A stretch of DNA of 64,000 bases, from contig CANLQL010000003.1 in the NCBI GenBank assembly GCA_947493265.1, positions 372,001 to 436,000 on the forward strand, read 5' to 3'. A model generated the notes under the pieces. It saw only the letters and a list, made by a program, of their open reading frames with translations, was not told the DNA's origin and made no database searches. The stretch comes from an uncultured Litoreibacter sp. (GTDB lineage Bacteria; Pseudomonadota; Alphaproteobacteria; Rhodobacterales; Rhodobacteraceae). Below are positions 59,678 to 64,000 of the stretch, piece after piece; within the stretch, counting starts at the first letter, position 1, and every line of letters begins with the position of its first letter. The translations under genes were made by a program, and so were the position numbers.

Positions 59678-59969
59678 CTTTTTCCAGACTTACTGAAGTT
59701 TTTTCGTGGCGACCAGTCACCTTATTGCGACGAAAGAGCCCAGGGGAATTCTGGTGCTACTCCTGCAAAGACTTGCTTCTTCGGTCCAATTTTTTATTGT
59801 TTACTTTCAATAAATTAAACTTCTTTCTGAAGATAAGATCTGTGGAATTGTTCGAATAGTACAATCCCGCCAGACCACCCTATGTTTGGAAAACACCCAA
59901 TTTTATGATACCCTCTCGCCATTATACAGATTCTATTTTGATACACTCCCAACCTCATTGAGGTGCATT

Positions 59970-62567
59970 TTGACAGAAAAATCTTTGCCGCAGATCGCCT
60001 ATGGCGATCTGGTTGAAAAGTTGAGCGATCCTGACGAAGACCTCGACTACTACATGCAGTACATGATCGAAGTTCCGGTCCCTGGTGCCACCACGCCAGA
60101 GCTGGAACCGAACCCCAGTCTGGTCACCGAAATCCCGCCGCGCGTGGAAGGTGGTGTCGGGATGGGGTTGGCCAATTGGTTCATGCGCAAACGTCGCCAT
60201 CGCGCGTATCGCAAGCGGATCAAAGACGGATGGAACGGCCACCGGATCGTTTCCGAAGGGGACAGCTGGTTTCAGTACCCGACGAAATTGCAAGATATCA
60301 TCGACCACCTGATGAAGGATCACGCGATCCTGTCGCTGGGGGCGGCTGGTGATGAGCTGGAAGACATTCAGGAGCAGCGGGAAATCCTGGTTAACATTCA
60401 GGCAGAGCGCGCGTCGGCGCTTTTATTGTCCGCGGGCGGCAATGACCTGTTTGACAATGGCCAGCTTGGCACGTTGATTGAGACCCCATTTCCCGGTGCA
60501 TCCGCAGATGATTTGGTGGGCGCAAAGCTTGACGCGTTTCTGGCCACCATACAGACCAAGTTTCTGCAACTGTTTCGCCGCGTGCACAACGCGGCCCCAC
60601 ATGTGCATATTCTGATCCACGGCTACGGCCCTGCGTTTCCGCGCGATGGTGCATGGATCGAAAAACCGCTTACGAAAGCGGGCGTGCCTTCCGAAATTCA
60701 GCATGACATCGTCAAGATCATCCTGCGCAAGTTCAATAACACCTTGTCCCAGATCGCTGGGCGGTCCGAGTTTCACGGCAAGATCAAGCATCTGGATGTG
60801 ACCAATATCGGCAAGAACCCCGGCGATTGGCATGACGAGATTCACCTGAACGGCCCGAACGCCGCGAAAGTCGCAGAGCGGTTTCGCAAGGAACTGCGCA
60901 AGCGTCTGACGGGACCGGCACCAGAAACGGGCATTATCCCTCAAGCGGCGCCACAAGCCGTTACTGTCGCCCAACAAGCCGAAAGCCTGTCCGCCCTTGA
61001 TGAGCCATTGTTGTTGCGAGAACTGGACTTGCGCGTCGGGCTTTTGGAAATGGACCCAACTGTTGCCGATGAGGCTGAGTTGGCTCCGTTGGTCATCGGT
61101 CGGGAAATGCCCGAAATCGGGATCACCTCTTTGCGGCAGGCCACGCGCCGGTTCATCCGCAATGCTGAGGCCGACTTGCATGATCTGATCTGCCGCGGCA
61201 GCGCTGATAGCAAGGTCGATACCGCTATCCTTGACGCTGTAGACAAAGGCAAAACCGCACTTTCCGGGGCTATCGCTGGCTGGCTTGTGACAGGTCCTTT
61301 GGCCGTGCCCGCTGTGATTGCGGGGGCGTTGGCGGCCTGGCTTGCCACAAAAGTCGTCACAGTCGGCCAAAAGCATATCTGCCAACTTTGGAAACACGGA
61401 AGCCCCGAAGTCCCACCTGTTTTGCATGGTTCCGTTGAAACTCAGGCCCCGACAATGGGCGAGATGCGTGCGAAATTCAGAACGCCGAAAGGCGATGGTG
61501 ATTTCTCGAAAACTGCCCAAAAAGAACAATTGGAACAGCTGGACGAAGACTTGGCCAAGCAGGTTGTCGAGGTTCCTTCGGTGCCTGTAGACGCGGATGG
61601 TGCCAAGAAATTCCGCCAGTCTGCCGCCAACATTTTCAAACTGCTGGGTGGTGAGCCTGATGACGTGACCCTCAGCCCGTCTGAATTCGGCACCGCGGAG
61701 GCTATGGTGGCCGTCAATGGCAGCCGTGTCGCGCTCTATGTGCGCGATGGATTCGTCGATACAAGTGACCCGAAGCTTGTCGCCAGCGGGTGGCAGGATG
61801 AGGTTGTGACCCATGAAGCGGAACTGCGCGATCTGATCGCGTGTTCTGGTCGAATTATCCGAGGTTCCGACCGGTCGGCCAATCAGGTCTATGGCTCAGC
61901 CTGGATGCTCGACAATGGACGCGTCGCGACCGCGCGGCATGTTCTGGAAGCCATGGCCATCGAAGTCGGTGGAGAATGGTTTTTGAAAGACATCTTCTTC
62001 GTCGACTTTTCTGTGGAAGCTGATCGCGACATCAATCCCGATGCCGTATTCAAAATCACTGGTGTCGACTGGGCCAGCCCAACGGAGATCGCGGGCCGGG
62101 TTGATCCCCGGCAATTGGACGCGGCCGTATTGAAGCTGGAACCGGTCGCCGGGCGGCCCTTCCCTGCCCCACTGGCCTTGACCGACACCGCCAACGAAAC
62201 GGTGGTGACGGATGCCGGTTGGTTCTTCAATGTAGGCCACCCTGGTCAGCCGTTTGGATCCTGGCTTGTCGACACGGAAGATGGTGACAGCGAAACGATT
62301 TCGAAAGCGCTTCTTTTTGCGCTGATCGGAGACAGGTTCGGGGTCAAGCGATTGTCACCGGGTTGGATCGATTTCAAACCCGGCAAATTTCCAAACGACG
62401 ATGACGCGCATGTCTTTACCCATGACGCAACCACGCTGGGGGGATCTTCAGGTTCGGCCATACTCAGCACGGCGCCTGGGCCATCCATTTGCGGCCTTCA
62501 TTTCGCAGGCTTGTTCGGGACGCGCAATTACGCGCATTTCATCCCGGCGATCCGCAACAATTGGTAA
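59970..62567 (+). CDS. Fused SGNH/GDSL hydrolase and trypsin-like serine protease
   Basis: An 865-residue protein if started at the TTG at 59970, preceded by TGAGG; a TTG at 59886 in the same frame is possible but the added residues look non-coding. Residues 95-320 have SGNH blocks: EGDSWFQ with Ser99, AGGND with Asn158, and HDEIHLN with Asp289 and His292. Residues 433-463 form a hydrophobic segment (GAIAGWLVTGPLAVPAVIAG). Residues about 620-865 are trypsin-like, with His657 in TARHVLE, Asp717 in QLDAAV and Ser827 in GGSSGSA. No signal peptide. It precedes a heme peroxidase by 86 bp. Confidence 0.85.
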   Translation: MTEKSLPQIAYGDLVEKLSDPDEDLDYYMQYMIEVPVPGATTPELEPNPSLVTEIPPRVEGGVGMGLANWFMRKRRHRAYRKRIKDGWNGHRIVSEGDSWFQYPTKLQDIIDHLMKDHAILSLGAAGDELEDIQEQREILVNIQAERASALLLSAGGNDLFDNGQLGTLIETPFPGASADDLVGAKLDAFLATIQTKFLQLFRRVHNAAPHVHILIHGYGPAFPRDGAWIEKPLTKAGVPSEIQHDIVKIILRKFNNTLSQIAGRSEFHGKIKHLDVTNIGKNPGDWHDEIHLNGPNAAKVAERFRKELRKRLTGPAPETGIIPQAAPQAVTVAQQAESLSALDEPLLLRELDLRVGLLEMDPTVADEAELAPLVIGREMPEIGITSLRQATRRFIRNAEADLHDLICRGSADSKVDTAILDAVDKGKTALSGAIAGWLVTGPLAVPAVIAGALAAWLATKVVTVGQKHICQLWKHGSPEVPPVLHGSVETQAPTMGEMRAKFRTPKGDGDFSKTAQKEQLEQLDEDLAKQVVEVPSVPVDADGAKKFRQSAANIFKLLGGEPDDVTLSPSEFGTAEAMVAVNGSRVALYVRDGFVDTSDPKLVASGWQDEVVTHEAELRDLIACSGRIIRGSDRSANQVYGSAWMLDNGRVATARHVLEAMAIEVGGEWFLKDIFFVDFSVEADRDINPDAVFKITGVDWASPTEIAGRVDPRQLDAAVLKLEPVAGRPFPAPLALTDTANETVVTDAGWFFNVGHPGQPFGSWLVDTEDGDSETISKALLFALIGDRFGVKRLSPGWIDFKPGKFPNDDDAHVFTHDATTLGGSSGSAILSTAPGPSICGLHFAGLFGTRNYAHFIPAIRNNW

Positions 62568-62653
62568 TTTTTCAAGCCGCCGGAAACGGAGGACAGGCGG
62601 CGATCTAGCTAGAACAATTTTCGTTCCAAATCAGCTACTTTAGGAGAACTCAC

Positions 62654-64000
62654 ATGTTATTTTCACTTGGACATGGCCAGCATATTATTCTGCCAGCAGA
62701 CGGCCAAACCGAAAGTGGGACACTTCCCGGAGCCGCCAGACATTTGTCTGCTGTCGCACCCGGCGCAAAGATGGGCAAGATCGCCACAGACGGGGTCGAG
62801 GCCGGATTGTCAGGCAGCGACGCACAAAGCTTCGGGTATATGTTTCCAGACGCCGAAGGCGCTGTGGGCAGCGATCCTGCCACGGTTAACGCACTGATCG
62901 CGCTTGCGGACGCTATGACTGAAGATCCGGGAGACCCAGCGGCTGCAAATTCGTCCATCCCGCCGATCTTCACCTATCTTGGCCAGTTCATTGACCACGA
63001 TATCACCGCCAACACGGACAGGGATGCCCCGCAGCCAAATCCGATTTCCGAGATGACGGGTCCGGTTGTGCCACCCTTGGACCGCGCCGACGTGGTGTCC
63101 AACATCGTGAATTTGCGCAATGGATCACTGCGCCTCGACAGTCTTTACGGTGAGGGTCCGTCTGATACGCCTTTCACGATCAAAGTGCGCAATGCGCTGC
63201 GTGATCCGTCAGATCGCGCCAAAATGCGGCTTGGCACGCTGGCTCCGTCGCCGGGTGACACAATCGCGTTGCCTGCCGATGGCATGGCCGACCTGCCTCG
63301 CCTGGGCGAGATGGTCGATGATCCCGCCTCTGGCCTCAGTGAGGCGGATATAGACGCCCTGCCAGATGGTCCCTTTAAGAACGGGTTCAAGGAAGGCGGT
63401 CAGTTGAAGCGCGCCCGCGCTATGATCGGTGATGGTCGCAATGACGAGAACCTGATCGTGGCGCAAACGCATCTGGCGTTCCTGCGGTTTCACAATGCAA
63501 TTGCAGCCAGTCTGGAAGGCGATATCGCCGATGCAGACGCGCGGTTTGTTGAAGCAAAACGCATCACGACGATGATCTATCAGTGGCTTGTTGTGAATGT
63601 GTACTTGCCGAAGGTTTGCCAACCATCCGTTGTGGACGGGGTCAAAGCTGCCGGTGCGCCGCTTTACAAAGACTTCCGCGCCCGGGTTGCAAGCTCGGCC
63701 GCGGAGTTGCCGCTGTCACTGGAATTTTCTGTCGCGGCGTTCCGCTTTGGCCATTCGATGGTACGGGCGGAATACGACCATAACAGCAATTTCGGTCGCC
63801 CCGGCACGTTGAAATCCCGCGCGAGTTTCCTTGACATGTTCTCCTTCACCGGAGGGGACCAACTGGGCAACGAGTCAATCGGCCGAACCCATGATCGCTT
63901 GCCGTCAAACTGGGTGATCGACTGGGAGCGTTTTGCAAAGGACGTGCCGGATGAGGCCGACCAGCGCGCGCGCAACATTGATACCAAACTGGCCCCGCCT
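62654..64000 (+). CDS. Animal-type heme peroxidase (3' end outside the window)
   Basis: The first 449 residues of a heme peroxidase of the myeloperoxidase/peroxinectin superfamily. The distal His115 is in LGQFIDHDIT with the usual Asp at 114, the catalytic Arg262 and Glu265 are in GDGRNDENLIVAQTHLAFLRFHN, and the proximal His367 is in FRFGHSMVRAEYDH. AGGAG at 62642-62646 precedes the ATG. No signal peptide is seen. It follows the SGNH-protease gene on the same strand. Many bacterial members carry calcium-binding repeats for type I secretion at the C-terminus, which cannot be seen here. Confidence 0.9.
   Translation, partial: MLFSLGHGQHIILPADGQTESGTLPGAARHLSAVAPGAKMGKIATDGVEAGLSGSDAQSFGYMFPDAEGAVGSDPATVNALIALADAMTEDPGDPAAANSSIPPIFTYLGQFIDHDITANTDRDAPQPNPISEMTGPVVPPLDRADVVSNIVNLRNGSLRLDSLYGEGPSDTPFTIKVRNALRDPSDRAKMRLGTLAPSPGDTIALPADGMADLPRLGEMVDDPASGLSEADIDALPDGPFKNGFKEGGQLKRARAMIGDGRNDENLIVAQTHLAFLRFHNAIAASLEGDIADADARFVEAKRITTMIYQWLVVNVYLPKVCQPSVVDGVKAAGAPLYKDFRARVASSAAELPLSLEFSVAAFRFGHSMVRAEYDHNSNFGRPGTLKSRASFLDMFSFTGGDQLGNESIGRTHDRLPSNWVIDWERFAKDVPDEADQRARNIDTKLAPP

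Follow-up and report, generated by a model that had tools for sequence, protein, structure and literature searches.

Three neighbouring genes of an uncultured Litoreibacter sp. code for an SGNH-trypsin fusion, an animal-type haem peroxidase and a papain-like protease, and this trio is kept in seven genomes of one SGNH clade. In our reading, to which we give about an even chance, the set is an intracellular, latent, protease-gated destruction module serving self-destruction or defence. The stretch of DNA analysed, called the window here, is 64,000 nucleotides long. The features are as follows.

59960..59965, + strand: GAGGTG, likely ribosome binding site of gene 1, from the sequence
59970..62567, + strand: gene 1, SGNH-trypsin fusion, TTG start, 865 residues
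59970..60944, + strand: SGNH hydrolase domain of gene 1, about residues 1-325 (S99, N158, D289, H292), from an 18-row alignment and a sub-cut-off match to Pfam Lipase_GDSL_2
61254..61358, + strand: hydrophobic stretch of gene 1, about residues 429-463, from hydropathy; two helices in the model, absent from some relatives
61725..62564, + strand: trypsin-fold protease domain of gene 1, about residues 586-865 (H657, D717, S827)
62642..62646, + strand: AGGAG, likely ribosome binding site of gene 2, from the sequence
62654..64000, continuing to L002:8552, + strand: gene 2, animal-type haem peroxidase, ATG start, 449 of 632 residues inside the window
L002:8624-10498, just beyond the window: gene 3, next after gene 2, papain-like (C1) protease with an extra C-terminal domain

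The coordinates confirmed the first-pass annotation of genes 1 and 2 as two genes on one strand with a gap of 86 bp, each behind a likely ribosome binding site. For gene 1, the TTG at 59970 was preferred over the longest-ORF start at 59886 because its relatives begin at that same place. The 18-row alignment showed that all SGNH hydrolase blocks (Ser, Gly, Asn and His) are present, S99, G127, N158 and H292 being invariant and D289 conserved in at least 90% of the rows. The Lipase_GDSL_2 score of 26.0 bits lies under the Pfam cut-off of 32.9, which 6 of the 10 scanned relatives reach. The C-terminal part has both the fold and the His-Asp-Ser triad of S1-like proteases; the triad is invariant in seven aligned rows, and Trypsin_2 scores 29.7 bits against a cut-off of 27.6. 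The positions originally proposed for a complete SGNH set (Ser99, Asn158, Asp289/His292) and a serine-protease triad (His657, Asp717, Ser827) agree with these results. A hydrophobic segment had also been described as splitting gene 1. At a single hydropathy threshold it is found in L085 as well as in the window protein, and is not detected in L083 or the 710-residue L086 protein.

Gene 2 scores 66 bits with Pfam An_peroxidase (cut-off 25). H115, R262 and H367 are invariant in a 19-row alignment and N474 is conserved in at least 90% of the rows, which bears out the initial view that the active residues of mammalian peroxidases are present. With its distal His, Arg, proximal His, Asn and Pfam score, the protein belongs to the peroxidase-cyclooxygenase superfamily (PF03098) and is a relative of human white-cell peroxidase, i.e. 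a myeloperoxidase relative. It is not an RTX-type long haem peroxidase, given its 632 residues and An_peroxidase as the sole Pfam match at E-values up to 1. Gene 3 has the fold and the Gln, Cys, His and Asn of the C1 papain family, with an intact active site. We read its extra domain as probably alpha/beta-hydrolase-like, from the order of strands and helices in the model and a Ser-x-Ser-Ala-Gly motif. The structure matches took in one domain per protein, which for genes 1 and 3 is the protease domain.

The three proteins are devoid of N-terminal hydrophobic segments, in line with the absence of Sec signals noted at first. Rightward of the window, where RTX repeats or a secretion gene had been proposed as targets of a search, the peroxidase ends without an RTX match and the next gene codes for the papain-like protease; a secretion gene is also absent among the ten neighbours scanned. 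Secretion of the set was rejected on these grounds, and from the initial suggestion of a protease-gated or exported module we retain gating, as the best reading. The same observations argue against an antibacterial or predatory weapon, secreted or injected, as the first-pass annotation had offered. A peroxidase makes sense extracellularly and relatives of the set carry wall-cleaving domains, two points in favour of a weapon, but we regard this explanation as quite unlikely. The neighbours include metal-uptake, copper-chaperone and BCCT transporter genes, and no defence island was found among the ten scanned. Folding predicted a terminator-like hairpin between genes 2 and 3, and thus these two genes may not share one transcript. 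Hairpins without a clear T run are also found at this junction in L083 and L086, with none notable in L085, and promoter and terminator scans gave no more matches than in shuffled sequences.

The genomes that keep the trio are those of the window, L083, L085 and L086-L089, with pairwise identities of 48-75% when four close ones are excluded. As the fused frame of gene 1 is open in the six other loci, the fusion is genuine, and a split gene or frame error, which had been named as a possible refutation, is ruled out. True split forms are present in L090 and L128, and in L084 the SGNH gene is followed by the peroxidase gene with no trypsin between them. The SGNH model is present in 17 of 295 family genomes. 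In this family draw, a peroxidase gene lies within 11 kb of the SGNH gene in 5 of the 17 and none was found nearby in the other 12, some of which are fragmented drafts, yet in the window's peroxidase clade SGNH is near peroxidase in all eight rows, five of them found via the SGNH gene. The SGNH-peroxidase pairing is therefore clade-limited, and the possibility raised initially that the two genes are rarely neighbours is half borne out. Of 10 genomes with C1 genes in the family draw, 7 have them beside SGNH genes, and 2 have them fused behind a trypsin domain. One plasmid of Rhizobium CC1099 carries both peroxidase and SGNH/C1 matches, but some 1.4 Mb separates them. A viral origin was considered and rejected, with five relatives in viral contigs, at 23-28% identity.

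The SGNH domain exchanges partners, which include trypsin, caspase, nuclease and wall hydrolases. Among 92 SGNH domains, the partners are trypsin (26), caspase-M15 (23), caspase (16), trypsin-EndoNS (4), amidase-M15 (3) or none of these (20), and the SGNH tree requires 10 partner changes, the minimum possible being 5. The genome collection has 389 stretches that encode SGNH relatives. L083-L162 were chosen by the SGNH domain as the best 80 of the 389, and hence rates among them are not family rates. L114 was dropped from the first alignment because of a stop; L070, with a peroxidase match of about 1e-4 to 3e-6, is in the raw 92-domain table and was not counted as a neighbour. The PADLOC 'nacht' model matches the trypsin part of gene 1 (E 1.7e-25), with no other good match in the set. 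Together with the fusions of the SGNH domain to caspases and trypsin-nuclease, this match strengthens the kinship to conflict systems suggested at the outset.

We also analysed the surroundings of the peroxidase relatives. In the family draw, a protease is encoded within 7 kb at 13 of the 18 best-scoring peroxidase loci, which exclude the weaker matches of 38 among 56 genomes. Without the S8b profile the count is 9 of 18; this profile recovers the four peroxidase loci (and L154) on which it was trained, which is circular. Pfam S8 is above its cut-off only in L049, L053 and L154 and slightly under it in L056 and L059, and the remaining profiles were likewise seeded from these loci, after identification by Pfam or direct similarity. 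At the class level, with 12 of 14 peroxidase places taken in, a protease lies within 7 kb at a single locus, and none is near 20 arbitrary stretches from 13 genomes. Protease neighbours are thus lacking at 5 of the 18 family loci and 11 of the 12 class loci, and also, by annotation, for the peroxidase relative of Paracoccus yeei. The peroxidases form three clades, each with a different protease cassette, and two relatives of the family draw (L057 and L058) are near trypsin-EndoNS genes.

TPR-regulator and PAP2 genes are present at 11 peroxidase loci, nine of which also have an S8-like protease gene, and at none of the 20 arbitrary stretches. The window's own genome harbours a related regulator-PAP2-S8-SGNH row elsewhere, with a second SGNH. 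PAP2 and S8 relatives are side by side elsewhere in all three window-type genomes searched versus one of seven arbitrary genomes. Counts from whole-genome searches are lower bounds throughout, because these searches score few first-look candidates per genome. No PAP2-S8 pair was found in G051 and G023, both of which have SGNH and peroxidase. As the best PDB matches of the PAP2 genes by sequence are acid phosphatases, we do not claim that they code for vanadium haloperoxidases. A tentative extension, which we find possible but rather doubtful, is a two-locus cell-destruction system. The regulator-PAP2-S8(-SGNH) locus would sense and trigger, the locus of SGNH-protease, haem peroxidase and C1 protease would execute, and the myeloperoxidase relative would be a protease-gated intracellular oxidative effector. 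By analogy, white-cell granules and lysosomes also bring together a peroxidase with enzymes of the trypsin and papain folds.

Alternatively, the set might serve in stress clean-up, the peroxidase clearing peroxide while oxidised protein and lipid are left to the proteases and esterase to recycle. For short bacterial peroxicins, a role in coping with reactive oxygen has been proposed (PMC4420034), but the patchy distribution, the partner swapping and the SGNH fusions to nuclease, caspase and wall hydrolases make the set unlike housekeeping, and we consider this role quite improbable. Gene 2 shares with the superfamily and its bacterial peroxicins the conserved His, Arg, proximal His and Asn of catalysis, but its neighbourhood is protease-linked; protease neighbours are not mentioned in the accessible part of that article.

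The set was not met in the open-licence literature. The first-pass annotation knew of no such combination, and partial precedents exist. Trypsin-NucA-S8 operons were noted in 2020, in System 3, where trypsin-like peptidases are coupled to NucA (Endonuclease_NS) (Kaur et al. 2020, PMC7159879). According to the available text, System 3 resembles our set in its mostly alphaproteobacterial distribution, trypsin core, S8 partners and papain-like partner. The window set has the trypsin-like peptidase, and SGNH relatives of gene 1 are fused to trypsin-EndoNS; trypsin-EndoNS genes also lie near the peroxidases of L057 and L058. In contrast, the defining NucA was not found in the three proteins (Pfam) or in L002 (own profile), and the words SGNH, GDSL and peroxidase are absent from the main text of PMC7159879. 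A GDSL-amidase-caspase protein of Chitinophaga pinensis, one protein in a 2012 survey (PMC3501461), combines GDSL/SGNH with a wall amidase and a protease of the caspase type, partners also seen in the window's SGNH family; no trypsin, C1 or peroxidase partner is mentioned in the accessible text. In nuclease-protease pairs and caspase-nuclease (canu) loci, trypsin-like and caspase proteases likewise replace each other beside one kind of partner, as far as described in PMC12799240. However, that partner is a metallo-beta-lactamase-fold nuclease, for which neither the three proteins nor the ten neighbours gave a match.

The CARD-NLR/LypABC systems also have trypsin-fold proteases, and cell lysis requires LypA and LypC to be active as peptidases, according to the part of PMC13236601 available; in that text, SGNH is absent and 'peroxidase' occurs once. 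Among relatives of the window's trypsin domain, S8-trypsin proteins are encoded in operons that also have a second trypsin gene and AAA/NACHT genes. In contrast, Pfam gave no match to AAA or NACHT, a sensor ATPase, a known toxin domain or CARD in the three window proteins (for CARD a sequence-level search, the fold search having taken the protease domains). An NLR-type STAND ATPase is thus lacking in these proteins, and an ABC transporter is the sole ATPase among the ten neighbours. Gene transfer agents are common in Rhodobacterales, which counts for another possibility, that the same destruction module was co-opted for programmed lysis releasing such agents or other particles, rather than for antiphage defence. 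Relatives with M15, Amidase_3 or a gene annotated as peptidoglycan-binding are consistent with this, as is LypABC of Caulobacter, which includes the trypsin-endonuclease LypC and is required for lysis and release in the text seen (PMC13236601). However, the module is patchy in the family, and we hold programmed lysis to be unlikely.

The best reading remains a protease-gated module that resembles LypABC and the trypsin-NucA System 3 but lacks their defining parts, with the peroxidase as a possible effector. A trigger would release the trypsin-fold or C1 protease, whose proteolysis would free or activate the partners. The SGNH esterase could then act on lipid or wall acyl groups and the peroxidase convert H2O2 to damaging oxidants, with lysis or growth block of the infected or damaged cell as the predicted outcome.

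Bacterial protease cascades are being studied actively, and nucleases, gasdermins and phospholipases are the effectors that the available texts name (PMC12799240, PMC13236601). If our reading is correct, the recurrent tie between animal-type haem peroxidase and proteases, specific to certain clades, would add an oxidative class of effectors, bacterial peroxicins would gain a testable role, and the core of SGNH-protease and C1 protease would represent a new searchable family. The recurrence of relatives of these genes in exchangeable combinations suggests a bacterial kit for self-destruction or defence that has so far gone undescribed.

The first-pass annotation described an SGNH-trypsin fusion followed by an animal-type haem peroxidase, a description borne out by the sequence and the ORFs. 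The window corresponds to C3:372001-436000 (C3 being a contig of a 3.52-Mb genome). The adjoining sequence to its right (stretch L002) completes the peroxidase at 632 aa and contains a third gene.

Window 59970-62567, + strand: gene 1, SGNH-trypsin fusion, 865 aa
Window from 62654, + strand: gene 2, animal-type haem peroxidase
L002:8624-10498, same strand as genes 1 and 2, 71 bp past the peroxidase end: gene 3, C1 (papain-family) protease that has an additional domain

The second domain of the gene 3 product is read as alpha/beta-hydrolase-like, judging by how strands and helices follow one another in its model. Genes 2 and 3 are separated by a 9-bp hairpin (folding z -3.7). The flank left of gene 1 encodes SCO1, a copper chaperone and an ABC-transporter pair accompanied by a Fur-family gene. 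The opposite-strand genes right of gene 3 specify a membrane protein resembling acyltransferases, a methyltransferase and a transporter of the BCCT family.

Of 295 same-family genomes, 31 contain a relative of at least some part of gene 1 and 56 a relative of gene 2; the SGNH model matched 17 of the 295 and the C1 model 10. SGNH and peroxidase genes lie within ~11 kb of each other in five of the 17 SGNH genomes (G000, G294, G185, G051 and G023). In the named-genome collection, 389 stretches harbour SGNH relatives. Among the best 80 of these plus the window, the order SGNH-trypsin, peroxidase, C1 is common to seven genomes, namely the window, L083, L085 (Paracoccus tibetensis), L086, L087, L088 and L089, with L086-L089 being close kin (79-99% identity across the three proteins). 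L084 has SGNH followed by peroxidase, without trypsin or C1, while in the sister row L090 (Roseivivax isoporae) SGNH and trypsin are two separate genes, and no peroxidase was found in the stretch examined. The gene set is real, conserved and clade-limited.

A protease is encoded within 7 kb of the peroxidase at 13 of the 18 best family-draw loci (E up to 4e-41; the matches in a further 38 genomes are weaker and outside this count), or at nine without the S8b profile, our own S8-like profile trained on four of the peroxidase loci and L154. Elsewhere in the class, this is the case at one of 12 peroxidase loci, and the profiles matched nothing in 20 arbitrary 20-kb stretches drawn from 13 genomes. 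The 40-row peroxidase tree (nine rows found via their SGNH gene) has three strong clades, each with a different cassette: SGNH(-trypsin) in 8/8 rows (3/3 without those found via SGNH), C1 with SGNH-caspase in 5/5 (2/2 likewise), and trypsin-nuclease or hydrolase-trypsin in 4/6. A 41%-identical peroxidase of Paracoccus yeei has no annotated protease within 10 kb.

The domains behind 92 distinct SGNH domains are trypsin (26), caspase-M15 (23), caspase (16), trypsin-EndoNS (4), amidase-M15 (3) or none of these (20). Proteins that carry an extra endonuclease/exonuclease/phosphatase domain (established for L091) are counted under 'trypsin'; counted under 'none' are L109 and L134, whose metalloprotease-like ends score above and just under the Pfam cut-off, respectively. 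On the SGNH tree, which has several long branches, these labels need 10 changes versus 53.7 in shuffles, and trypsin and caspase interchange at the same place behind SGNH. A C1 gene is near 23/23 caspase-M15, 12/16 caspase and 7/26 trypsin forms, the latter seven being the same seven with a peroxidase; the C1 and peroxidase genes of Palleronia span its plasmid's start and are outside these counts. Family-draw C1 genes adjoin an SGNH gene in seven of 10 genomes, are fused behind a trypsin domain in two (G288 and G292), as also in Paracoccus aminovorans, and in one (G081) the gene is split and alone.

SGNH-trypsin proteins with conserved neighbours are present in L091, L120, L145, L150, L151, L154 and L155. 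The L091 protein has an endonuclease/exonuclease/phosphatase-type end, and among the neighbours are genes for an S8-like protein (seen in L154) and a RimK-like ATP-grasp protein (seen in L145). In L100, L102, L105-L107, L110-L112, L124, L133 and L138, the gene 3' of SGNH-caspase-M15 encodes a conserved membrane protein of ~350 aa; seven hydrophobic segments were counted in L138.

At 11 peroxidase loci (L023, L049, L050, L052, L053, L055-L057, L059, L125 and L129), nine of which have an S8-like protease according to our own profiles, a TPR protein weakly resembling SARP-type regulators is accompanied by a soluble PAP2-family protein whose motif is complete. The TPR and PAP2 genes of Loktanella (L125, L129) and Palleronia are upstream of, and co-oriented with, those for peroxidase, C1 and SGNH-caspase. 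The window's genome encodes, on one strand of contig C2 (L080), a TPR protein, PAP2, an S8-like protein and an SGNH-like protein of 431 aa.

L080:12796-13989, contig C2: own-genome PAP2 gene

The S8 match is under the Pfam cut-off (19.6 versus 21.8), and the SGNH part, recognised by our own profile only, is the closest in the set to the window's SGNH (29%, 1e-30). PAP2 and S8 relatives are side by side elsewhere in 3/3 searchable window-type genomes versus 1/7 arbitrary family genomes; among three further genomes, G171 has PAP2-S8 pairs, and G051 and G023 have none. With few genomes compared, the link between window-type genomes and separate PAP2-S8 pairs is a lead.

All 13 aligned soluble PAP2 proteins (L080 and 12 others) have an intact catalytic motif and, close to the N-terminus, a run of short peptide repeats whose unit varies by genome (GGV, GNA, GQ, HGM, GRS, HGAT, SR, NR). 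At the DNA level, TRF detected a tandem repeat in four of five tested genes (L080, L049, L125 and L157) and none in L057.

The first-pass proposal of an exported antimicrobial module is unsupported, as none of the three window proteins has an export signal. The partner enzymes around SGNH and peroxidase are predicted cutters of protein, nucleic acid, wall or lipid, and relatives of the window's trypsin domain occur in operons with AAA/NACHT genes. For LypABC, a Caulobacter lysis system, the published account states that LypA and LypC must both be active as peptidases for lysis to occur, and that LypC also has an endonuclease whose activity is dispensable for lysis (PMC13236601).

Three-gene rows of an S8-trypsin, a second trypsin and an AAA/NACHT protein (L078:7282-15298, L079:7441-15409 and L071:3200-11243) are perhaps relatives of CARD-NLR/LypAB systems. 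In the second trypsin, AAA is above the cut-off in L078, weak in L079 and absent in L071; PADLOC gave no match for the second and third L078 proteins.

The SGNH-protease and peroxidase combination had no match in the open-licence literature searched. Because of the partners' enzyme types, the lack of export signals, the trypsin/caspase exchange, the AAA/NACHT operons and LypABC lysis, we favour the trio as a putative latent destruction module, whose peroxidase might be an effector or a protector of the cell. The trio would then be a new variety of protease-cascade conflict system.
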